Source: Branchiostoma floridae
Taxonomy: Eukaryota > Chordata > Leptocardii > Amphioxiformes > Branchiostomatidae
Direction: 5' to 3'
Assembly (NCBI RefSeq): GCF_000003815.2
Contig: NC_049981.1
Coordinates: 30,386,760 to 30,450,759 of the forward strand
Length of the DNA stretch: 64,000 nt
In this document: positions 28,101-64,000 of the stretch, one piece after another
Numbering within the stretch: position 1 is the stretch's first letter
Layout of the letters: every line of letters starts with the position of its first letter
The notes under the pieces: generated by a model
Database searches by the model: none
Told to the model about the DNA's origin: nothing
Seen by the model: only the letters and a program-made list of their open reading frames with translations
Program-made: the position numbers and the translations under genes

Positions 28101-31100
28101 TTTACCTCTGAGTGATAAGGAAAGTCTAGGGTTGGGTTTAGTGCCAACATGCTATTATTTGTTGTGACAATTACACTCAATTTCAACAAATGTAGTGGTA
28201 CTTAACTAGCATTTCCTTGTGTAATATGATGTGAAAAAAATATTGAAATGTCCCTCAAAAATGACAACAAAATGCTTATTACACGTGATCTATAGTATGA
28301 AAACTAAGTCCCCCATGGGTACCCCCAGGAAGCCAACTTTTCACCTTATATTTTTAAAATCTCACCATAGAGAGGCCAAGACCCCCTGACAAATCATCCC
28401 CCTGATTGGCGACTTTAATACCTTGCTGTTACCATTATGCTAAGATAAAATCAGAACTAGAATCCTTAAGTCCTTGTCACTGCTATAAAAATATTCATGG
28501 CTAGGAAAAAAAAACCTGAGTACCTACCTAAGATCCTGTTCAGTGATCTTATCCCCCAGCCCCCCTATGTACAGAGTTGTAATGGAACGGTCCTCTGGCG
28601 GCTTCAGAGACGGCATGTTGTCGTATCTCTTTAGCAGTTTGTTAGCCACAGGGTCGTTGACCCCATAGTAGCGGTCCTTGATGTTCTGGTCTGCCAGAGG
28701 GTCGTCCGGATCTGTTGGCTTCTCGTGCCTGAAAAAAAAAGTTGATAAAATGTTATTCTGGCAATATTGAATGACAGTCTGTAGAATTCTTCATCTACTT
28801 TGCAAATTAAATTTGAATCCAGGTACTTCTTCTTACTCAGTCCTATATAAAGTTTTGTCATCACTGTTTATGTTATGCTCTATAAAACAATTCCTATCGA
28901 ATTGGTTCGATCTTGTTTCAGAGTGTCAATGAAGGTTAGACATCCAGGTAATACGATATGCCAAAAAGCAGTTACTCAAGCAACTGGATATGATTTTGGA
29001 AACAGTGAGACATTTAAGATAGCATCCACTATCTTTCATCAGTGATGATCATTTAGGAGCAATACCTTTTGCAGTATTTTTCAGACCTCAAATCAACCCT
29101 TTGATGCCTTAGCTATGACAACAACAAAAAATGATGCGATTACCTGTAGGGACACTCCTCTCCCCTCTTACATTCACCTTTGACCCAGAAGGAGCAGATG
29201 TGGGGACGGTTCCTCTTGTAGTACGGCGTGGTCCGGGCCAACTTCAGCAGCATGTCGCTGGGTGCCTGGGCCTTACCCAACGTGCCCACGGCTTTGGAGC
29301 CGTCTGTGTTGGCAATCTGTTGGGTGGGACAGAGTTTTGTTAATGTGAGACACAAGCAAAATACAGTGATAATAAGCTACATGTGCGTGTATTCCTCGCC
29401 CATTCCTCATTAACTGGGAAAATTGGAGGTAGAAAATTGTAAAAAATAAAGTTGTCCAAAACGCTTACCTGCTGGTATGAACTTGTTACCACTTATATCG
29501 ACTATCTTTTGCTATTTTTGTCTGGTGCTAACACGCTTAATTTTGGAGATATTTGATTTTTAGTAGGCCATGTCATCTTTCCTACAATTTCGTAATAAAG
29601 AGCATATTACTACACAGAGAAATGTTCCAGCAAGTAATAGTGGATTAACAACAGCCAAATTAGCGAATTTTCCAACCCAAAACCTTCAAATTACACGCCA
29701 ATGAGAAATATTTAACCGCCGTGTCATTTGTTTCGGAATAATCATCAAAATTACTAGCTATTAAGTTTGCTACATTTGTATAAAAGTAAATAAATGATTT
29801 TTTTTTTTCTGATATGAAGACAAACCGTTTAATACTCCTTAATTTTCACCCTGTAGGATGGGATAAGAGCGATAGAATATATTTATGAAAATGGTTGGAA
29901 GCAGGCGATATCTATTCTACAGGTAAATTCCAATGAACTGTGGTAACGTAAATTACAGAATCTCTAACATTTGGAGGAAAGCCGAATAGTGTACATACTG
30001 GCTCTATTTGAACTGATCAGGTTATGTTCGTCTATAATGCTGGACCTCTTATCTTCATGTTGCTAACTCAGAGTAGCAAAAAAGTGTATCTCTGTTATCC
30101 GGAATACCCGTATAATCTTGTTCGTCCTATACCCACCCGGACTCTGCGGAAAGACACCCAAGATATGCAAGGTCTCTATCTTGGCGGGGTCTATTTACAT
30201 ACATGCTAAGTAACAAAGGATTCACGCAATCACACGCTCTAGGTCAGAACCGCTTCGTCCTCGCGTCCTTTAATCAAGTCTTTGGGAATAGCAGGACATG
30301 ATGCGATGGCAAAATGCACCAGATGGACTGGGCCTTTCTAGCACAAGCTTTCGATATTGGAAAGACAACAAACTAAACACCAATTATCGCACTTCTTATA
30401 AAACATTTTTTAATGTCAGGACAATCTTTGTTCGTGGAACAAACACAATGTCACATCAATATAGAATGAATGTGCTACCTAACAAAATGTCCATCCATAC
30501 ACCTTATATCGTGTGGTTCAATAATACCGGCAGAAAGAACTGTGTAATATGTGTATAACAAGGCTTTTGTTGATGAGCAAGGCTATAAACAACATTATCA
30601 TATAGCCATGCGCCGCGGACCAATCAGAAGGCCCCGTTCCACGTTGGTTATGACGCCGTAACACGTAGATCCAGGCCAGGCAGGTGGGTTTCGCTCCTCT
30701 GATTGGTCAGAATGAATCGACACCGGCACCGGTGTCGATTTGCATCGACACTGGCACCAGTGTCGATGCTCATAAAACCACCTCGTTCGCTTCGCTCACA
30801 TCGGTGGTTTTATTCGGTGGTTATAGCATAGGACCAGGCGTTATGACACCATATACACCTCGGGGCGGGTCATTAACCCTTAAGTGAATTTTCCAAAAGA
30901 GAGCTGCATGTGTAAAGGCAGTCTGTTCTACAGTTATCCTGGCAGCCTGTCCCTTTATACTAATGCCACATGATTACATGACAAGCCTGACGTTATATAG
31001 ATCTTGACTTTATAGAGTGGGATTGGTTTCACAAATAGCTTTCTGCCTTGAACCATGTGTCTGTCCATGTAAAACAATTCTGTGCATCAATTCTGTGCAG

Positions 31101-34100
31101 TCACGACTGGTTGAAAGAGTAGTTTGCTTCTAATTAACAAGATTTCCAACCTAAACAAGCAAAGGTGAAAACTTCGGAACATCTAATGATAGTGAAGTCT
31201 TAACTTAAGTTAGCTATTAACTTCTGCAGCCCATATGCTTTTGATCATGGAGCTTATAACTCAATGACAAGTCCTCAATGTAGGTAACGTGGCGCTAGCG
31301 TAAATAGTGTCGCTGATTTACCGCCGTCTGTACGTAAAGGGGTCCACTGTGTAAAACGAGAAATATTTCTGTGACACGAATCTTGACTACATTGACCTTC
31401 ATAATTAGCTGATCATAATCTCTGTTGCTATTTAAGACAAACATGCTTGAAACGTACCTTACTTCATCAGTCAGTGTTGAGCATGAATTTCTGTCATTCC
31501 AGTCGTGTGATCTTCAAAAAACGCGCGAAAATGACGACAAACTTGGACGCGTCTAGTTTGACAACAGGGGTTTATTTTGGTTCAGTCCAACCCAATATAC
31601 ATTTATTCAACTTGGTACTATACATTCCGTGTAATGTTGATTATTGAAGCATCAGATATCAATATAAACACCCGCATCTTTCCAAGTTGGTGCATGTCAG
31701 GTTTATCATTTGAACATCGTTCCTGTAACAGTGGGGTTCTAGCGCTGCCAAACTGACCACGCCAACAGCTCTTGAGCTTTTAGTGTTGTGGTTAGCACGT
31801 TGGATTTGTGATCCGGCTGCCCGAGTTCGACGCAGGTTCGAATCCCGCGAGTCGGGATGTTGTTTATTTCAGTTCTTACTCGCCCCTATGAATTTCTACA
31901 ATGGTTCCTACGCCGGCCCTGTGAGTAACAGGCTAGTATGTGCCACACAGGGATGTCGATCTCGGAGATTCGAGGACGAATCTTGAAAAGAAAAGGGGGA
32001 GTAGTGTAACAGTGGTGTTCAAGGACTGCTAAACCGAAGACGCCTAATGGCTTAAGCCTTTTGGCCGAACGGTTTGCACGTTCGATTTGTGATCCGGCTG
32101 CCCGGGTTCGGCGCGGGTTCGAATCCCGGGAGTTGGGATGTTGTTTCTTTCTGTTCTTACTCGCCCCTCATATTTCTACATTCCTATGAGAAATGAAAAG
32201 TCCCAGCATCGTAAAATTCACTGAAACAGGAACATATAAACAGACTGCATTGTGACTCTATGGCGAGCCAAGCCCACCTACAGTAACATTACAGCAGATA
32301 ATACGTCTTTGGTTGATGTGCTCTTGCTGAACATCGGATGACATGTTGAAGAAAAAAAATGGTAACGTAAATTATATGGTAACGTAAATTATATTTATGC
32401 TTTTAATGATAAATAAAATTTTAACAAACAGCTCTGGAAAGATTAACTCTGCAGGCAATTACTTATCTGGGAGCATTCTTTCCTATGAGTACAAAAGTAA
32501 TGATCTTTCTATAATTCTAAGGGACTTATTATGGTAACGTAAATTATATCAAAAAAGTGACAAACGGCCTGAGATTGGCGGTTATAGTCATGTTTCCAAC
32601 ATTCGTGTTTTATGTGTTCTGTCATTTGTTTATTACGCAACACCACTGTTTAGCAGATAAAACAGTGAAAACATTATCGGAAAATGTCTTTTCGTAAGCG
32701 AATTACGCCCAACAGAAGTTCGGTAACGTAAATTATACAAAAGTTGGCGACAAGAATAAAACGGCATCTGACGTAAAAAGGTTGTCTGCTGGACAAGTTC
32801 ATCAACACGTGACAAGCCGGCCTAAGTGGTTGATGTAAATTATGACTGAAAATTTAAAGAACTAATGTATTTTCATTATCAGAATGCCACGATATTCACC
32901 TTTATAGCATTTCCGACACGTGTTTTTAGCGTGTTTCTAAGCAAAACCTTACCCGGGACGACCAAAAGGCAACTAACAATGGTGGGAAAACATTGCTTAG
33001 CATATTACTATCATGTACTTGTAACGGAAAAGGGCAAAATACGTAGTCATTGTGTCTTTAAAGAAAACTGTGGCCCGCTGCTTATGTGCGACAGCAATTT
33101 GCCCCTTTAACGAGGAATGGGCGTCCTGTGCCTGGGCCTTCCCTAACTGGCCAAAAGCTTTGGAGCCGTCTGTGTTGGCTATCTGTTGGTTAGGACAGAG
33201 TTTTGTTAATGTAAGGCACAAACGGAGTACATGTGCATGTATGGGGCGCCTGGGCCTTTCCCAACGTGCCCACGGCTTTGGAGCCGTCTGTGTTGGCTAT
33301 CTGTTGGGCGGGACAGAGTTTTGTTAATGTAAATGATAAAGGGCGCTGGAGAGCTGCCATCAAGCCCCCTCATCTACATGCAAGCACGTCTAACCCCCAC
33401 AGGATAGGGAACAACAGAGTGATGATAAACCGGATAGTGAATGAGTGAAGGCACAAGCCACAAGCACAAAGTACAGTGATTAGCTACATGTGCATGTACG
33501 TAGGGCATGGGCCTTCCCCAACGTGCCCAGGGCTTTGCAGCCGTCTGTGTTAGCTATCTGTTGGGTGGGACAGAGTGTTGTTAATGTGAGACACAAGCAT
33601 AGTACAGTGATAAGCTACAAGTGTGTGTATGGGGGGGGGGGGGGCCTAGCTCTAAATGTTATTCAGTAGATTTCTAGCGAGGTCAACGCCCATGAAGCCG
33701 GTTCTTTCAAATGCGGAGTAACCAATTAACACCAGACCGGTGGCACGCGAGGGTCAGGGAGGAATGTTTCCCACCTATTGTCCGTCGATTACTAGCTGTT
33801 AAATACCGTCAATACATTACAAAGGAAATCTTTCTAGGGATTTCTTTAGTTTGCAGCATGTATTTTTGTGAGCTGGTCCTTGAAATACTGGTAATATATA
33901 GAATAGAAGTACGGACTGAAGAATCAACTTACTACAGCCGTTGCACATGGGTCTTTAGAGACGTCTTTTTACCTTATTACAAGATCCAAGTTGTGAGTTG
34001 TAGAACTACGTGCTGTTTTTACTATATATTTTACAGAAATAACAACAATGTAAAATGTGACACATGTTACATTAGCCCAAAACTTTACACACATCATTGC

Positions 34101-46637: not shown

Positions 46638-49600
46638 TTAGATACTCTGCTTCACCTGTGAATACTGTTCAAAATACCTGATGGCCTTCTTGTAATCACC
46701 TAGGATGCCATAGGCCGTGCCCAATTTGTTAAGTGAGTCAACAATGTCAGAATGTGCACTTTTCTCCCCATAGATACACTGCATCATCTGAAGTGACTGT
46801 TCAAAATACCTGATGGCCTTTCTGTAATCACCTAGGTTGATATAGGCCGTGCCCAAGTTGTTCAGTGGCATGACAATGTCAGAATGTGCAGTTTGCTCCC
46901 CATAGATACTCTGCATCATCTGTAGTGACTGTTCACAATACCCGATGCCCTTTTTGTAATCACCTAGTTCGCAGCAGACCCCGCCCAGGTTGTTAAGTGA
47001 CATGGCAATGTCAGGATGTGCAGTGTTTTTACCATAGATACTCCGCCTAACCTGTAGGGAATCATCATAATAGCTGGCGGCCTTTCTGTAATCACCAAGT
47101 TCGCGACAGACCCCACCCAAGCTGGTAAGTGAGGCAGCAATGTCAGAATGTGCACTGTTCTCACCATAGATAAGCCACCTCATCTGTAGAGACTGTTCAT
47201 GATAGCAGACGGCATTTCTGATATCACCATATTCTTTATAGTTATTGCCCAAGCTATAAAGTGAGTCGGCAATGTCCGGATGTGCAGTAGTCTCTCCATA
47301 GATACTACGATTCATATGAAGTGACTGCTGAAAATAGCTCACGGCCTTTCTGTAATCACCAAATTCACTAAAGGCCGCACCCAAGTTGTTTAGTGTGTTA
47401 GCAATGCTGGGATGCGCAGTGTTTTCCCCACAAATACTCTTCCTCATCTGTAGTGACTGTTCACAATAGCTAACGGCATTTCTGTAATCACCAAGTCCAA
47501 TATAGACCGTAGCCAAGTTGTTAAGTGAGTCGGCAAGGTCAGGATGTGCTGTGCTATCTCCATAGATACTCCGCATCATCTGAAGTGACTGTTCACAATA
47601 GCCGATGGCCCTGCTGTAATCACCAAGTTCCTTCCAGGCGTCGCCCAAATTGTTAAGTGTCGAGAAAATGTCAGAATGCGCAGTGTTCTCACGACAGATA
47701 ATCAGCTGTGTCTGAAGTGACTGTTCATAATAGCTGATGGCCTTCCTGTGATTACCAAGTTCTCCCCAGGCGCCACCCAAGTTGTTAAGTATCGAGGAAG
47801 TGCCAGGATGCGCAGTGATCTCACCATATATTCTCTTGTTCATCTCTAGTGACTGTTCACCATAGAAGATGGCTTTTCTATAATTACCAAGTTTCCTCCA
47901 GGCCGAGGCCAAGTTGTTAAGTGACCTTGCAATAGAAGGATGCGCAGAGTCCTCTCCATAGATACTGCGGCACATCTGCAATGATCTTTCGTAACAGCGG
48001 ACGGCCTCTCTTTGGTCGCCAAGATCCCCCCAGGCTTTGCCCAAGTTAGTGAGTGATCCGGCAATACAAGAATGTGCTGAGCTTTTACCGTATACAATCT
48101 GATTCATTTGTATTGACTGCTCCAAATAACCAACTGCCTTTCTGTAATCACCATGTTTACAACAAACATTACCCAAGTTGTTAAATGACGAGGCAATGTC
48201 CGGATGCACAGTATTTTTCCCATGGATGCTCAGGTGAATCTGTAGTGACTGTTCATAATAACTGGTGGCCTTTCCGTAATCGCCAAGTCTAATCCATGCC
48301 GTGCCCAAGTTGTTAAGTGACACTGCAATGTCCGGATGTGAAGTGTTCTCCCCAAGGATGCTCTGCTTCATTTGTAGTGACTGTTCATAGTAGCGAATTG
48401 CCTTTCTGTAATCACCAAGATCATACCAGGCCGTACCCAAGTTGTTAAGTGAGTAAGCAATACCAGGATGCACAGTTATCTTCCCATAAATATTTCGCTT
48501 CATCTGTAGTGAACGTTCCCAATAGCCGATGGCCTTCCTGAACTCACCAAGTTCGCTCCAGGCAGTGCCCAAGTTGTCAAGTGAGTTAGCAATGACAGGA
48601 TGTGCAGTGTTATTCCCATAAATTATTTTCGACATTTGTAGTGTTTGTTCAGAATAGCTGACGGCCTTTCTGTAATCACTAAGTTCACAGCTGACCTCAC
48701 CTAAGTTGCTAAGTGACGAAGCAATGTCAGGATGTACAGTTTTCTCACCATAGATTCTTCGCCTCATCTGCAGTGACTGTTCATGATAACTGAAAGCCGT
48801 TCTATGATCTCCTTGCTTGCCACAGGCATCACCCAGGTCAGTAAGAGCCTCAGCAATATCGGAATGTGCATTACCTTCACCATATTTATTTATGTAAGCA
48901 TGTAGTACCTGTTCTGCACATTCCTTATAGTTTCTATAGTCACAAAGATTTCTGTACACTTTTGCTCTTTGTCCGGAAGAGTCGTCAAATAGAATTAATG
49001 ATTCCTTTGTGAGCTTCCCGTGGACAATTTCTGAAATGAAGCCTTTTGTTGGCAGTGCTGTGTAATAGTATCTCATGAGCTGTTTTGCATTTGAACAGTA
49101 AAAGACTTTCTTTGATGTCTCCCCAATATCTGATTCTGTCGACATTGTAATTGATGACAAGGCTGACATGCTTTCCACCTGGCCTCCATTGCTCATGTAT
49201 GTACGCAGTCGCAGTTCTGCTGAGATGCTTACCATCACCATCAAGTGATGTGCGTTTTCACTACTGATGACACCATTCTTGTGCAGATTGTCAATGGTCT
49301 CCCAGATTGTGGTCGGTGCTATGTTATGCAGTAGCGCCAAACACGACACTGCAAGGCTTGAAAATCGATACATATCCTTCTTTACATTCATCAACGTTGC
49401 AGGTAGAGATTCACATTTGAATAGTGGCGCATTATCAATCATATGAGTTATTGCTAATAGGGAACGAACTAGCCCGGGATGATTTCCTTGCTGTCGCTTA
49501 GTCCATAAAGTGAGATATACTTCTACCAACTTTTGTTCTCCTGTGATTAAACAGACATTTCCCAAAATACTAGCAAGATGATAGCCTTTCTCCAAGTGAC

Positions 49601-52600
49601 GGGAGATGTCTTTTGCCATTAATTTGGACATCTCCATTGGTGTGTGGATAAGTTCACTTGTTGATGCGCAGTTTCTACCTCTGCCTAGTGGAGTTTTGCA
49701 TGCATGTGGCATGGCTCCATCAAACGCAAACCCGCGCGGCGTTACTGAGTCATAGAACCAGTTGTCTAGTGGGTCGTCAGAGTAGAAATCATTGAGAGAC
49801 CGAATTCCCATAGCAGGGAGAATGGTTTCTCCCAAACTAATAACTTTGAGATGCAGAAAATGAGTGAGATTGCGGAAATATGTGACGTTGGTCTCTGTTT
49901 CCTCCTCTACTAAGATGGCAAACTCTAGATCGGAATATGGTGTTACCAATCCTGTCGCTTGTGAACCCAAGCCTATCATGGCGTACTTACAGGGAGGGGG
50001 ACCCATTACCTCCATACATTCATCTACTAAGCCAGCTATACATGTTTTTCGCTGACAAACAATTGTCTCAAACAATGCCTTGATCTCTTCCGCTCTCATT
50101 TTCTCAACTTCTCTTATCTTTGGGTTATCATCATCAAGACTGTATGGATCCACCTCTTGTTCGATTCTTTTGATCTCTTCTTTTACATTGTTTCTATTTT
50201 CTTTTAACATTAACTTGTGTTTCTTTGTGTCACCAATGTCTACCCTTTCTTCAATATTGAGCACATGCTTACAAAATGCATGACTTATTTCCTGGAGAGC
50301 TTCAGTTATGTCTTCTCTCCTTGACCTTACCAGTGCTGCATTACAGAGTGCAGCAGCCTTGGTGAAGTCTCCTCCATCCTTTGACTGGATTCCTCTCTTC
50401 AGGTAGACATCGCTTAACTTGTAGAGGGGCTCTGCTTCTTTGCAGTGTTGGTCAGGCTTTGAATCTGTAAAAATAATAGAATTCACAGGCTAGCAATGGC
50501 TTTATTCTATTTTACTGTTTACGTTGCCATATGAATTGAACTAATTTTTTTGCATGTGGTCATTGAAATAGTGTACAGTTTGATATCGCAGACTCACATT
50601 TAACATGTACAGACTTGAGCGCAGCCGCAATCTCTTGCTCTGCCTTGTCCAGGTCCCCTTTCTGCAAGGCCCTGCAGCCCTCCTGCATTTGCTCTTGGTA
50701 TGTACTGTAAAGAGAGATGAAAATAAGCGATACACGTTTTTATTTGACCACCGATCATGAGTACACTTTTATTGAATGAATAGCAATGTGTTTAGTCACT
50801 CCAAATGCTTAAAACCTCACAAACCTCATAAAAGTTTGTCTTCATTCGTAGCTGACATCAGACATATAAAATAATGTCTGTTGACTTGCTGATTTGGAAG
50901 AACAAGTAATTCACAGCTCACAAACCTGTCGGTGTCTCCCTGTGTTTTGTCACTTGTCTTCACGAGTCCGGCGTTTTCCTTTCCTGTGCTCATTCTATGT
51001 GGAATAATAAAACAATATCAGCATATATCTATTAGATATAGTGACAGGGCACCATGCATCAGTGAACCCAGCCAATTCGTGACCTGGGAGTCTAAGGGTA
51101 ACACAGTAAATAGCCGGTCAGGATATTGGGTAGTGTGCGAAGTTTCTGTACTAATAATAATGATAATCGCTGCAGTACACACGGAAGCCACACACAAAAA
51201 TTCCCAGTAAATCGAGCATCAATGCAGTATAGCTGGTTTATTTTAAACAGTGTGAAGCTTGTAGTAACGGTTTACTACCTCGGTATGTCAAGATGGAGAT
51301 AGTGGTCCCGAGTCACATCAGTTTCTCTGTTGGCTCCAAACTTGTGCCCCATTGATGATCTTTTTCCTTTTGGTCTTAATATATCTGCTGGTGGATGCTG
51401 AAAAATACAATCCGCAATTGCTATAATGTTTTACCTTGCACGTATATTCTGGAACATTGCTGCACTTACAATTAGGGTATATATGTCTTATCACATTCGA
51501 ATACATATATATATTATTGACAAGTTACTTACTGATCGGTTGTATTTGTGAGAAGTTCAAAGTCGGTTGCTAATGTCATTAAATGATTGCTTGAAGTGTT
51601 GGTCATTAGTTTATGGAAGAAATTATTTGTGTGGTGTGGCAGATTTTGTTCGTCATTCTTAAGATAAGGATCCGAGTTGTTCTGTTTATTTGCGCAGGGA
51701 GGGGGGGGGGCGAGTGACGCACCCTTACAGGTGGACGCATTGCTCTGTCAAGAATACAATATGGGAAATAGTCACGAGAAAAATTGGCTGCACCATGTTA
51801 AAGAAATAGTAGATGACACAGGCTATTCTTTCTTATGGAACACAAACTACCCTACATTAGACAATAAAAATATATGTACATTGGAGATGTAAAAGAGGAG
51901 ACTTACTGATATGTATGTTAAAACTGTCTTTAAATAATGGTAGGCTAAGATTTTACAAAAGTGTTAAATCCGAATACGCGATGGGAAATTACCTATATCA
52001 TAACGTGTTTAATGTAAGATAAGAACAAGCGCACATCCGATAGAGATAGAAAAGGGCCGCAATAAACAGTTCCCTTTCCAAAGATTGTGTACATATTGCC
52101 CAATGAATGCAGTGGAAAAACATACCAAAAATCATGACGATCCGTCAACATGTTCATATTTTCTCATTAATTATGCAAATGAGGCCGTCATTTGCATAAT
52201 TGATATGCATTGACATTTCTCTCTTTCTCATCTATATATGTAACAAGTTTGAAAGCCCTATCATGAAATGCACTGGATTTATAAACTTTCCTCATTAATT
52301 ATGCAAATTAGTTGCTGATTTGAATAATTTGTATTTCTTTAGGTACATTTTTACTTGGGCTGTCTACATACCAAATATCATGACGATCCATCAACACGTT
52401 CTCGAGTTATTCTCGTGCAAAGTTTGAAAGGAAATCGGCGACTGCAGTTCCAAACAAGCCGCTAGGGGGTCCAAACTTACAGCACTTACTCTCTGGCTCA
52501 AGGGTTATCTGCCACTCAAAAATCATAACCACAGCATGTCCAAAACAAGAGATATAAAAAATTGAGTTTCTGCTGCAGTACCTTAGCAAGCCGCTAGGGG

Positions 52601-57498: not shown

Positions 57499-60458
57499 CT
57501 CTTTCTTTCTTTCTCTCTTTCTTTCTTTCTTTCTTTCTCTCTTTCTTTCTTTCTTTCTTTCATCTAAGACGTGTGTGTATGTGTTGTGTTGATATGGGCA
57601 GTCAAGTTTGAGACGAACAAACAAGCAAATCTAGCAAACAATAAAAAGATATACAGACGGTGAGCGCCATAGACTTCCTGCAACCTAGGATCCACTGCTT
57701 ACTGAATCACGTGTTCTATCTGCATAACGTGAGGTCACGACAGCAGTGGATTGTTCATTCCTTGACAAAAGACTGGTGGTGTTCAGTCCAATTTTTGTGT
57801 TGGATATTACAGTTAAACTAAATCTTTAGTTCAATAAGTACTTCTACCAACACAGATGAACTTTCAAGTTAAGATATACATACGGTTCTGTCCGGGCCGA
57901 AGGTTTCCGTGTAAAGGCCTCCCCCTCGCTCAGCGGTCGGGTACGTCTCGTCTTCTGCAGGAACCGTCTGCGGGGACCGAGGCAGGTACCGGGGCAGGAC
58001 GAACCGGCAGGAGGCGCTGCTGCCCAGGCCCTGCAGGTACACGTCACCACCCAGGCGGCGGGAGCCGAAGTAGGGGCTCCCCGGCTGCTGTTCTTGTATT
58101 TGACTTTGCTGTGAGATTGGCCGCAGCCTTGGGATGTGGGGCCTACGCAGGGTTAGTAAAAATAGTCATGAGAATCATTGGTACTGAACGGATGGCAAAA
58201 ATACATGGCAAGGTAACGTTGTAAACATTTCTAAGATAACGGCTATTGTTCGGGTCTTCTTCTTTGCCGTGACACTGGCGCAGCCTTCGGATGTGGATCA
58301 TGTGGAGTCTGTGTATTGTTGGTTAAAATGGTCATGAGAACGTAAATCTGTGGTATTGGACGGATGGCAAAAATACATAGTCTTTCCCAAATGACACAAC
58401 ATCTGTGGCATATCAGGGATTCGAACCCGGGACCTCTTGGTTCTGTGCCAAACACCCTAGCCGTTACGCCAACAAGACACCACTAGATATTTTGAGTTTA
58501 AGCATAAGAAATAAAAGATGACCTGTAGTCAATCAGGCGAGGACGACCGTAGTCTCGATCCCAGACGTCCTGGTCAGGCTCTCCGTCAGGCAGGTACGCT
58601 GGTTGTCGGGTTGGAATCGGCTGGTCCTCGATCCCGTTTCCGCCAGCCCAGTAGGCCCGGGAGCCGAGGCTGTAAACCTGGGTGAACAGTCCGCCTCCGT
58701 ACTGACTCCCAGACTTCCCGCTCGAGGAGGAACTAGACAGTGGCGTGTCGGGTAGGAAGCGAGGGAGGCGGGTGGGATAGCGGATGGTGGAACGGGCGGG
58801 AGAGGCGGTGCTACCACCGGGGAGGTAGGACGGGCTGAAGCCGAAGTGGAAGTCGTCCCAAGCCAAATCCAGGTTCGGACCGCCAAGAGCGCCGCCGGTA
58901 TGTCGAGCTCTCTTTCGCCTCCAGGAAAATCCCAGCGAAGAGCGCCCGTCCTCGACGACGTACCTTTTAACGAAAGATTTAGGGCCGTTAGTCACCCACT
59001 TGTGAAGGTATATCGCTACAGTGCTACAGCCCTTGGCAAAGCCACATCAACAGAAGCTGCAAGAAAGCGCGAATCCCTTACTACTCGAGAAACCCAACTC
59101 TGCCCTACCGGTGACAGGGACTTTAGAACCCGTAGTGGACTGATAAGCCGCAGCCGGACACATCGCGTTACGTTCTTGTTAAGAGATTCAGGAAGATGCA
59201 TTTTATGTGTTTGACTCCAGGACGACTAGTGATGCAGAATTGTACTCACTAATGGAGATCATTTGAATAAACAATAATTGATGCATTTTATACTGATTTA
59301 TAGTGAAGTGTTATTACAGGGACTGACATAGTGATGCTCAGCGTTCGGGATGATCGGAGATGGAAGATCATGGAACCGGGGACTTGTGTTAAGTAATTAT
59401 TGACCGAGCTATGGTAATATTCATAGTACTAGGCTAGATTGTTACAGCGCTTTTGAGGGGTGCTATCCTGTTTTTTTGACTGCTAATACACGTACCTGAC
59501 GTGATGGGGTGGCAATCGACTACGATGGACGAACAACCCATGAACACTCATGAAACGATCGGAAACAACAATCCGGGTCATACCTGTTCCACCTCCGTTT
59601 TCGGTGCCGTTTGATGTAGACGGCTCGGCCGATGGTGGCGCAGCACAGTAGCAGGAGGAGCGCGCCCAGACCGGACCCAACAGCGATCAGCAGCCACATG
59701 GTCTGGTCTGTGAGAACGCGAAGGTTAAAGTCAGTATGCATGTATATGTTACAGTGACTCATTACCTTCGCCAAGAAGGTTATATTTTTGGTAGGGTGTT
59801 TGTATGTATGTGTGTAGAACACCGGCATAACTGGAGAACGCATGGATGGATTGTATTGATATTTGGTATGTCGGTAGATCTTTATAACACCTAAAAACGA
59901 TTAGATTTTGGGCCCCCTAGGGGCTTTTTACAGTACTGCAGCGGAACTTTCTGGCTTGATATCAATTTCTGGACATGCTGTGGTTATGATTTTTAAGTTG
60001 TAGATAGCTCGTGAGACCGAGAGTAAGTGGTATAGATCTGGGCACCCTAGCAACTTCTTTTGGAACTGCAGGGCAGGTTTAGTGTTAGACTTTGAAAGGG
60101 AATAACTCAAGAAGGATTGACGGATTGTCATGATTTTTGGTATGTAGATAGCTGAAGTGATGCTTCATATAATTACATATTAACCATGCAAATTGGAATC
60201 TAATTCCTCTATCTATCTTACCGCAGTCTTCCCTTAATAAGACATCTGGAGCCTCATAGGTCAAGTTTCAAAACCATTATTCAGCCTGTCAGCAAGTCAG
60301 TACGCATGGTAACAGTTATTCAAACAGCCGGATAAAATTTGGAAACGCTCAATGACATACGTTCAGCATCTGCTGTCTTCTGATAGTTACAGGATGAGGA
60401 ACTATATATCTAGTAATCAGTGAGCAACTCACCTCGCGGTCCTGGGTCTGGCACAGAC
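57242..60458 (-). CDS. Single-pass membrane protein, 3' exons only (identity unknown)
   Basis: Five minus-strand exons join in one frame: 60458-60433, 59707-59584, 58963-58523, 58127-57884, 57316-57242 (stop 57242-57244), giving about 302 residues without the N-terminus. The first is a short extracellular stalk (SVPDPGPR). The second holds one transmembrane helix (MWLLIAVGSGLGALLLLLCC) and a basic stop-transfer stretch (KRHRKRRWNR). The rest is a Tyr/Pro/Gly-rich cytoplasmic tail (SLGSRAYWAGG, SPYFGSRRLGGDVYLQGL, ending YGVYRVIPESNL). The 58963 acceptor (TTAAAAG) and 58523 donor (AG|GTCATC) are weaker than usual. The acceptor at 58127 lies in a SINE-like tail. Upstream exons, including any signal peptide, were not found before the satellite at 62.4 kb. 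No family recognised. Confidence 0.6.
57466..57562 (+). repeat. (CTTT)n microsatellite
   Basis: About 24 CTTT units with three CTCT interruptions. It lies in the last intron of the membrane-protein gene. Confidence 0.95.
57664..57875. mobile_element. Right half of the 45782-46072 MITE family
   Basis: GCGCCATAGACTTCCTGCAAC, then GATCCACTGCTTACTGA, and a terminal region with TTGTGTTGGATATTACAGTT and AACACAGATGAACTTTCAAG. The left arm is missing. Confidence 0.55.
58104..58215 (-). mobile_element. SINE 3' region, truncated
   Basis: On the minus strand, TTTTTGCCATCCGTTCAGTAC, then CTCATGACTATTTTTAC and CATCCCAAGGCTGCGGCC. It matches the tail of the full SINE at 58255-58485 over about 110 bp. It overlaps the start of the 58127-57884 exon. 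Confidence 0.6.
58255..58485 (-). mobile_element. tRNA-derived SINE
   Basis: On the minus strand a tRNA-like head (58485-58410) has the A-box-like TGGCGTAACGGCTAGGG and the B box GGTTCGAATCC. It is followed by a non-tRNA body (AAATGACACA region, TTTTTGCCATCCGTCC) and a tail shared with 58104-58215. Confidence 0.75.
59757..60170. repeat. Dispersed 'gccaagaaggtta' repeat
   Basis: Starts ACCTTCGCCAAGAAGGTTAT, has a TGTATGTATG tract, and continues with GGGCCCCCTAGGGGC and TGCAGCGGAACTTTC. It shares phrases with 3100-3480, 22640-22690 and 22985-23045. Non-coding. It separates the stalk and membrane exons of the membrane-protein gene. Confidence 0.55.
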
Positions 60459-61943: not shown

Positions 61944-62400
61944 TTAGTTTGGGTTTAGGCACCGAAAACTTTCCCGATATATTGGCCGAGTACTTCCTGG
62001 TAAAGCGGCCCTATCGCCTGATTACCCAGATAATGCATTTTCGCATGAAGGCCGAAGAACACAGTGTTTCTACGCGACCCCCTATGACGCATGGGTAAAA
62101 AAGAAGTGCGACCGAAATCTTGAAGCGTACGTAAACACTGTCACGTAAAAGACAGCGGGGCATGAACTTTGCTATATGGTAGTATAGCGAGTCAAATTGC
62201 AGACCACATGTGAGAGATTGTGGTGCATGTTCGTCCATTCATTGTATCAATGCGCGTGACCTTTACAGCTGATTGCCTCGGTGAGTCGGCTGAATGTCCA
62301 CATTACTCCCCCATGGTCTTAGCCTGGGTACCATCCTGGTAGTAGTTCGCTTCTACTCTGCTGCTTTGAACGTTCTTATTCTGTCGTATAGTCATGTGAG

Positions 62401-64000
62401 GTCTCTTTCTGGGCATATGTCGCGATTATACCTTCCGTGGTTCTCAAGGCCACGATGACGTCACAGGCCTGGACAGGTGAACACCCGATATCACCGCCTC
62501 AGTCGCTCAGACGGCTGCAGAGGCCGGATCTTCCGCACCAGGTCGATGCGGACGGGCGGCGGGTATGTCTTGGTGCTAAAATCCGGCGGTACTTCCTCGG
62601 TATAAAAAAAATAGGTGTAAAAAGCCCTGGCCTAATGCATTCCAATGGGGCCCAGGGCTTTTTAAGGGCCCTTAAGAGCGGCGACGAGATGTGCGCCCGC
62701 CATGGGTCCCCAGCCATGCCCCTGGCCAAGGCCCTGGGGATAGGCACCATAGTCTTGGGGATACAGGTCTCTTTCTGGGCATATGTCGCGATTATACCTT
62801 CCGTGGTTCTCAAGGCCACGATGACGTCACAGGCCTGGACAGGTGAACACCCGATATCACCGCCTCAGTCGCTCAGACGGCTGCAGAGGCCGGATCTTCC
62901 GCACCAGGTCGATGCGGACGGGCGGCGGGTATGTCTTGGTGCTAAAATCCAGGCGGTACTTCCTTGGTATAAAAAAAATAGGTGTAAAAAGCCCTGGCCT
63001 AATGCATTCCAATGGGGCCCAGGGCTTTTTAAGGGCCCTTAAGAGCGGCGACGAGATGTGCGCCCGCCATGGGTCCCCAGCCATGCCCCTGGCCAAGGCC
63101 CTGGGGATAGGCACCATAGTCTTGGGGATACAGGTCTCTTTCTGGGCATATGTCGCGATTATACCTTCCGTGGTTCTCAAGGCCACGATGACGTCACAGG
63201 CCTGGACAGGTGAACACCCGATATCACCGCCTCAGTCGCTCAGACGGCTGCAGAGGCCGGATCTTCCGCACCAGGTCGATGCGGACGGGCGGCGGGTATG
63301 TCTTGGTGCTAAAATCCGGCGGTACTTCCTCGGTATAAAAAAAATAGGTGTAAAAAGCCCTGGCCTAATGCATTCCAATGGGGCCCAGGGCTTTTTAAGG
63401 GCCCTTAAGAGCGGCGACGAGATGTGCGCCCGCCATGGGTCCCCAGCCATGCCCCTGGCCAAGGCCCTGGGGATAGGCACCATAGTCTTGGGGATACAGG
63501 TCTCTTTCTGGGCATATGTCGCGATTATACCTTCCGTGGTTCTCAAGGCCACGATGACGTCACAGGCCTGGACAGGTGAACACCCGATATCACCGCCTCA
63601 GTCGCTCAGACGGCTGCAGAGGCCGGATCTTCCGCACCAGGTCGATGCGGACGGGCGGCGGGTATGTCTTGGTGCTAAAATCCGGCGGTACTTCCTTGGT
63701 ATAAAAAAAATAGGTGTAAAAAGCCCTGGCCTAATGCATTCCAATGGGGCCCAGGGCTTTTTAAGGGCCCTTAAGAGCGGCGACGAGATGTGCGCCCGCC
63801 ATGGGTCCCCAGCCATGCCCCTGGCCAAGGCCCTGGGGATAGGCACCATAGTCTTGGGGATACAGGTCTCTTTCTGGGCATATGTCGCGATTATACCTTC
63901 CGTGGTTCTCAAGGCCACGATGACGTCACAGGCCTGGACAGGTGAACACCCGATATCACCGCCTCAGTCGCTCAGACGGCTGCAGAGGCCGGATGGTACC
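62401..64000 (+). repeat. 366-bp satellite array, 4.4 units, running off the window
   Basis: Units begin (GTCTCTTTCTGGGC) at 62401, 62767, 63134, 63500 and 63866, with periods of 366 or 367 bp and very high identity. Each contains a CRE palindrome TGACGTCA (first at 62456). Each also has a hairpin AAAAAGCCCTGG / CCAGGGCTTTTT and a TATAAAAAAAATAGG tract. A minus-strand frame of 106 codons is repeated in each unit; in the 367-bp unit one extra base changes its C-terminal end. The last unit departs at GGATGGTACC instead of GGATCTTCC at the window edge. GC content is much higher than in the flanks. Confidence 0.9.

Follow-up and report, generated by a model that had tools for sequence, protein, structure and literature searches.

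Can an LTR element too small to encode a protein carry a tRNA-type promoter of RNA polymerase III (Pol III) in its terminal repeats and nevertheless move as a retrotransposon? The question is raised by a locus of the amphioxus Branchiostoma floridae, at 31724..32180 of the 64,000-nucleotide stretch of contig NC_049981.1 analyzed here in its entirety (the window). The original prediction had read this locus as a TRIM, i.e., a short LTR element without protein, with a tRNA-like module inside each LTR, and had considered it an animal analogue of the plant element Cassandra that captured a tRNA-type promoter.

The element and its family in the genome

The element is protein-less and measures 457 bp on the plus strand. 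It is composed of a 5′ LTR of 177 bp belonging to a subfamily A (31724..31900), an interior of 104 bp, below the size for the usual LTR-element protein (31901..32004), and a 3′ LTR of 176 bp belonging to a subfamily B (32005..32180). The two related repeats, whose termini are TGTAACAG...TTTCTACA, and the TTCC motifs that flank them on the left (31720..31723) and on the right (32181..32184), were confirmed where they had been predicted. The same is true of the two signals that bound the interior: a TGG-led primer-binding site (PBS), TGGTTCCTACGCCGG, located one base (an A) past the 5′ LTR (31902..31916), and a polypurine tract (PPT), AAAAGAAAAGGGGGAGTAG, which closes the interior and abuts the 3′ LTR (31986..32004). 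The two LTRs agree at 145 positions and differ by 29 substitutions and 5 gap columns; BLAST gives 81% identity.

The genome (513,431,437 bases in 431 contigs) was searched with the whole element and with a pattern that extends from the LTR start to the B box; scored searches give minimum counts. There were 40 scored matches out of 1267 candidates for the whole element and 594 matches for the pattern, against none for its reversed control, so the element is not a product of chance. Among the scored matches, 39 of 40 (window copy included) cover at least positions 7-457 of the query. Apart from the window copy, all of them share 91-98% of its sequence, which is odd because its own LTRs are only 81% identical.

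A total of 55 distinct copies with an interior were collected and 49 of them were parsed at both ends. Outside the larger repeat described in the next section there are 23 parsed copies, of which L057 and L062 were left out since one of their LTRs is disrupted. In the remaining 21, the LTR pairs are 97-100% identical, and 13 of these pairs carry no substitutions at all. Target duplications flank 19 of them, 18 of 4 bp and one of 5 bp (L055), and none was found at L060 and L071. Seventeen single LTRs were also read. Five adjoin a TRIM interior (L125, L126, L131, L133, L136), leaving 12 candidates for solo LTRs; perfect 4-bp duplications are present in eight of these, either detected by a script (L113, L132, L134, L135) or by eye (L121, L122, L123, L124), and absent from the other four (L127-L130).

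Different LTR types coexist in the family. Types A and B diverge chiefly over their first 80 bases, where 59 of 80 columns agree, compared with 93 of 99 further on. Type C LTRs occur both in two-LTR elements and in tandem ones, exemplified by L109, which has three type C LTRs and the duplication acaa, and by L097 (951-1676), where LTRs of types B, C and B follow one another within the duplication gtac. The many two-LTR copies, 4-bp duplications, solo LTRs, interiors bounded by PBS and PPT and conserved boxes that the original prediction expected are all found genome-wide, and the outcome that it had named as contrary, tandem SINEs only, with neither a bounded interior nor duplications, did not occur. 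At the level of sequence, the substitution-free LTR pairs, the 4-bp duplications, the solo LTRs and the tandem forms show that members of the family insert in the manner of LTR elements, and the copy in the window is by its structure a genuine protein-less mini-retrotransposon with tRNA-type promoter sequence in its LTRs.

The DNA transposon around the window copy

The window copy is contained in a DNA transposon of ~3.7 kb (29397..33123), which has ~29-bp imperfect inverted ends (CGCCCATTCCTC...) and is flanked by the 4-bp duplication TCCT; at copy L008 of this carrier the flanks are CATA. No open frame in 29397-33123 reaches 150 aa, and the carrier copies are ~98% identical, with internal deletions. 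Common carrier flanks, together with a common mismatched LTR pair, characterize 26 of the 49 parsed TRIM copies, a share that is biased because the whole-element search favoured window-like copies. To judge from these flanks, the 26 copies are one TRIM insertion within a larger repeat. A search with the joined TRIM flanks, containing a single TTCC, gave 40 scored matches out of 92 candidates: 15 of the 40 match at 95-100% (six of them at 100%) over the full length of the query or as far as base 139, two span the junction partly and 23 match a single flank only. Carrier copies without the TRIM, where a single TTCC stands, do exist, and the 4-bp duplication around the window copy is therefore real.

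The 5′ LTR of the window is 93-96% identical to young A-type LTRs and the 3′ LTR 94-97% identical to those of B-type; the divergence between them is, on these identities, mainly that of two LTR subfamilies and not decay since one insertion. Since LTRs are mixed both in the window copy and in the tandem element L097, recombination between types is likely, perhaps during reverse transcription. The window copy is, by all appearances, a passenger: one mixed-LTR insertion, then multiplied by the carrier, a case in which a DNA transposon is shown multiplying a retrotransposon as cargo.

The common mismatched repeat pair could also be explained if a dimeric SINE or a DNA transposon were copied as one unit, and the nearly full length of almost all scored matches, despite the low identity between the LTRs, is in line with such copying. 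However, the 26 copies with the mismatched pair among the 49 parsed lie within the common carrier flanks, and the carrier itself explains copying as a unit, whereas the other copies have closely matching LTR pairs and mostly 4-bp duplications of their own; a tRNA-Glu piece captured in one copy (discussed below) and the solo LTRs also argue against it. Unit copying, by a TGT-ended DNA transposon or a dimeric SINE, was rejected on account of the carrier flanks, the A and B subfamilies of LTRs and the TRIM-free carrier copies, and we regard it as very improbable for the family as a whole.

Other features were observed within the carrier and the window. The carrier copy L105 (246-1415) has an additional ~1.17 kb inserted into its TRIM interior, at the borders of which the interior overlaps by 8 bp (20-27), and the LTR spacing at G000 C10:14468085-14469721 is nearly the same as in L105. 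Dispersed 17-bp repeats (GGTAACGTAAATTATAT) are found within the carrier at window 32361-32742. Elsewhere in the window, there is a 1283-aa open frame rich in TPR repeats (13 stretches of Pfam TPR_10) on the minus strand of 46641-50489, and a 366-bp tandem repeat (4.4 copies, 99% matches) at 62399-63994.

Promoter sequence, hairpin and T-run in the LTRs

The tRNA-like segment with a B box that had been predicted in each repeat was recovered. Motif matches to the B box GGTTCGAATCC are located at 31835..31845 in the 5′ LTR and at 32116..32126 in the 3′ LTR, and the match of the 5′ LTR to the Rfam tRNA model, at 31781..31848, is weak (26.4 bits against a gathering score of 29; E 0.0025 with that region searched alone). 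It includes the D, anticodon and T arms and covers positions 8-63 of the 71 of the model, the acceptor stem being missing. The A box TGGCCGAACGG is present in its strict form at 32062..32072 in the 3′ LTR; the strict form is absent from the 5′ LTR of the window. An LTR of type E reached 24.4 bits over the same model positions (8-63), also below the gathering score and without acceptor stem. No tRNA match was obtained at E 0.05 from six other loci that contain young copies, nor at E 1 from a type C LTR. Over the whole 64-kb window, the Rfam scan found nothing at the gathering score, and ARAGORN reported no tRNA and, with a lowered threshold, only weak and mutually inconsistent folds. Neither the window nor the tested LTR region matched 5S rRNA in Rfam. 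From its sequence, the tRNA-like part looks like a promoter relic rather than a tRNA.

LTR types were sampled from 100 listed matches of the 594 obtained with the pattern, which yielded 43 distinct strings and 22 types at under 85% identity. A strict A box occurs in 8 of the 22 types (shuffled mean 0.11) and a loose one in 15 (shuffled mean 2.0); in subfamilies A and C, the A box is weak. Of the 46 LTRs of parsed non-carrier copies, 44 have the B box, and the two exceptions are disrupted LTRs. Its presence in the 594 matches is not independent, as it forms part of the search pattern. TATAWA and AWTAAA are absent from these 46 LTRs, the sole exception being a TATA in L062, in its disrupted LTR.

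A second tRNA-like unit, possibly a SINE, was observed on the minus strand at window 58380-58480, where TTGGCGTAACGG accompanies the B box GGTTCGAATCC. A SINE origin of the tRNA-like part of the LTRs was considered with this unit (near 58417, minus) and set aside: the shared stretch is of only 14 bp, and its score of 28 compares with maxima of 25 and 26 in shuffled sequence.

Upstream of the A-box region, the LTRs contain a hairpin followed by a run of T. In the 5′ LTR of the window they occupy 31762..31781 (TTTT at 31778-31781), where sequence and family evidence would place the R region, and in the 3′ LTR, as a palindrome, 32042..32065 (TTTT at 32059-32062), the predicted 3′ end of the RNA. 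A T-run just 5′ of the A-box region exists in 21 of the 22 LTR types, in the form of TTTT in 20 and of CTTT in one, and one type is without a run. The TTTT, at about LTR position 55 and overlapping the start of the A box, is present in 37 of the 43 distinct strings and in 33 of the 42 LTRs of the 21 non-carrier two-LTR copies; a hand count of the 100 listed matches gave 77 TTTT, 15 TTTA, 5 CTTT, 1 TTTC, 1 ATTT and 1 without run.

The innermost three pairs of the hairpin are complete in 17 of the 21 types, compared with 4.86 on average and at most 11 when the arms were re-dealt 20,000 times, although such permutation controls overstate independence because the types are related. Despite this relatedness, the six different arm pairs encountered (GGC/GCC, GCC/GGC, GCT/AGC, GCA/TGC, GGT/ACC and GGG/CCC) would be hard to get otherwise than with a covarying hairpin. 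One representative of each of the types A-E folds into a hairpin at this site (-8.4 to -16.9 kcal/mol), and in some types the apical loops are self-complementary (TTAA, CTAG). The fold z-scores of the 21 types against single-base shuffles are mixed, with a mean of -1.8, 8 of 21 at P ≤ 0.015 and seven above 0.25. An alignment of 13 distinct rows from about five LTR types (A1), a weaker test than the re-dealing of arms, gave a covariation score of 0.285 versus 0.102 when shuffled and at most 0.110 when slid; two of its five measures, the number of pairs with a change in either arm at once (2) and that of further pair types (5), were not above shuffles (474/500 and 366/500).

A particular subtype carries TTTA and retains the hairpin without TTTT. 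It has moved without a plain TTTT, because there are loci with two TTTA LTRs and because the LTRs of two of its copies, L055 and L067, are substitution-free. This weighs against TTTT being strictly required and represents a real difficulty for reading the T-run as a stop. In undisrupted parsed non-carrier copies there is no other TTTT in the ~300 bases between the 5′ LTR site and the hairpin site of the 3′ LTR, a weak observation given that shuffles lack TTTT in 8-21% of cases (six copies tested), and L112 has an additional TTTT at an LTR end. We infer that hairpin and T-run constitute the Pol III stop and the R region. The broader proposal, that Pol III-driven LTR elements use a covarying hairpin and a T-run set against the A box as one start/stop/R cassette, has in our estimation slightly less than an even chance of being right.

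Two alternatives to this cassette must be weighed. The element might be an ordinary TRIM made by Pol II, in which the tRNA-like part is the inert leftover of a SINE insertion, as could be suspected from the low tRNA scores, from the weak A box of subfamilies A and C and from a TTTA subtype that is mobile without TTTT. We consider this unlikely, since A-box matches far exceed those of shuffles in LTR types with differing 5′ halves, TATA and poly(A) signals of the forms searched are not found in undisrupted LTRs, and T-run and hairpin have been retained next to the A-box region. Less unlikely, but still improbable in our opinion, is that the covarying hairpin acts as an RNA signal for packaging, dimerisation or strand jump, Pol III being stopped otherwise. 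Self-complementary apical loops are found in retroviral dimer sites and, as described, some LTR types display them; the TTTA subtype, moreover, has kept its hairpin while lacking TTTT. Against this stands the position of the T-run, which directly follows the hairpin site in all types but one.

Probable primer tRNA, known relatives and proposed mechanism

With overlapping loci counted again, 94 of 114 primer sites begin with TGGTTCCCACGCCGG; in the window copy, a T replaces the last C of the CCC of this usual form. Over its 15 bases, the usual form is complementary to a tRNA-Glu 3′ end with its CCA, and the corresponding pattern has seven matches in the genome and none in the control. The one of the seven that was read (L137, 1451-1525) is called by ARAGORN as a tRNA-Glu with anticodon ctc. 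At this locus CCA is encoded in the DNA and pairing between the 5′ and 3′ strands of the acceptor is poor, for which reasons it may be a pseudogene or a retro-copied tRNA. In L110, the primer site runs on into tRNA-Glu for 55 bases, 54 of them identical, and is then followed by the usual interior. The simplest reading is that plus-strand DNA was copied far into the attached primer; it points to tRNA-Glu(CTC) as the primer of the family, and L110 provides strong genomic evidence of LTR-type priming by tRNA-Glu.

The autonomous partner that the original prediction proposed to look for was not among the matches read in these genome searches. One search gave four matches, and the two read (L138, L141) are other TRIM types; another gave five, of which three were read, L139 and L142 being TRIM derivatives and L140 being without TRIM; and a third search of the genome gave none. 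A query with the altered primer site of the window also gave no match, a result that the alteration renders uninformative.

TRIMs with tRNA-like LTRs have been named Helenus (Kojima, 2024; PMC10886601), and the term TRIMp3 was proposed for TRIMs bearing a Pol III promoter (PMC10886601). In animals, Helenus insertions are flanked by 4-bp duplications and the families are considered Gypsy-dependent; for Helenus, no complementarity is reported between the tRNA-like segment and the PBS, and Pol III transcription was, according to the discussion, not validated (PMC10886601). Among chordates, Table 1 lists ray-finned fishes and the coelacanth, and the main text does not contain the words amphioxus, Branchiostoma or lancelet, nor any occurrence of hairpin, palindrom or TTTT (PMC10886601). 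Bivalve TRIMs are treated in PMC6934838. No title or abstract start among the literature matches listed names an element of this kind in amphioxus, which does not prove its absence from print. The predicted animal analogue with a tRNA-type promoter is supported as regards its sequence features and is not new, Helenus having already been described (PMC10886601).

The resemblance to Helenus is extensive. The amphioxus element is a short two-LTR element without coding capacity, whose 457 bp are inside the Helenus range of 311-1263 bp; A and B boxes lie in the tRNA-like part of both LTRs, and they are kept while tRNA scores are weak or absent in several young copies; the PBS corresponds to a tRNA 3′ end, here that of tRNA-Glu, and a PPT is present; and duplications of 4 bp (18 of 21, with one of 5 bp and two copies without), solo LTRs and tandem forms (in Helenus, LTR-11_DR) are shared. 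It differs in its host, missing from Table 1 of PMC10886601, in having been multiplied also as a DNA-transposon passenger, in the 55-bp tRNA-Glu capture of one copy, and in the hairpin with its T-run, which the main text of the Helenus paper does not mention.

According to PMC10886601, the plant element Cassandra likewise has a Pol III-type promoter in each LTR, with the start in the 5′ LTR, the stop in the 3′ LTR and an 18-bp repeat at the RNA ends, a layout that would be the same here; its LTR segment is 5S rRNA-derived, whereas that of amphioxus is tRNA-like without 5S match, and transcription is reported for Cassandra and predicted for the amphioxus element. Ajax, from nemerteans, is also an animal TRIM with a Pol III-type promoter in its LTRs, but the promoter is 5S-derived and the duplications are of 5 bp (PMC10886601). 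The traits of tRNA-type SINEs, namely non-LTR copying and the lack of PBS, PPT and LTR pair, are not those of the amphioxus element. The kind is thus already known, and what is added here is the amphioxus host, the trace of the primer tRNA and the conserved hairpin with its T-run.

Altogether, the best explanation, and one that we hold to be quite probable, is that of a young Helenus-type TRIM, primed by tRNA-Glu, with Pol III start and stop in its LTRs, whose mixed-LTR copy in the window was multiplied by a DNA transposon. At tRNA-type promoters, Pol III initiates some 15-20 bases upstream of the A box. The polymerase would start near LTR position 40, at the foot of the hairpin, directed by the A and B boxes of the 5′ LTR (positions 58 and 112, respectively), and the transcript, of about 300 nt, would traverse U5 and the interior and stop at the hairpin and T-run of the 3′ LTR. 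Both RNA ends would then have in common a short R of about 18 nt, which could serve the first strand jump, and the proteins would be supplied in trans by another LTR element, most likely Gypsy.

Amphioxus thus joins the patchy list of Helenus hosts, and the captured tRNA piece provides genomic evidence of the primer. If true, the cassette, of which we found no description, would be a structural hallmark of Pol III-driven LTR elements, and as a testable start-stop arrangement it suggests how a Pol III transcript could serve LTR-type reverse transcription.
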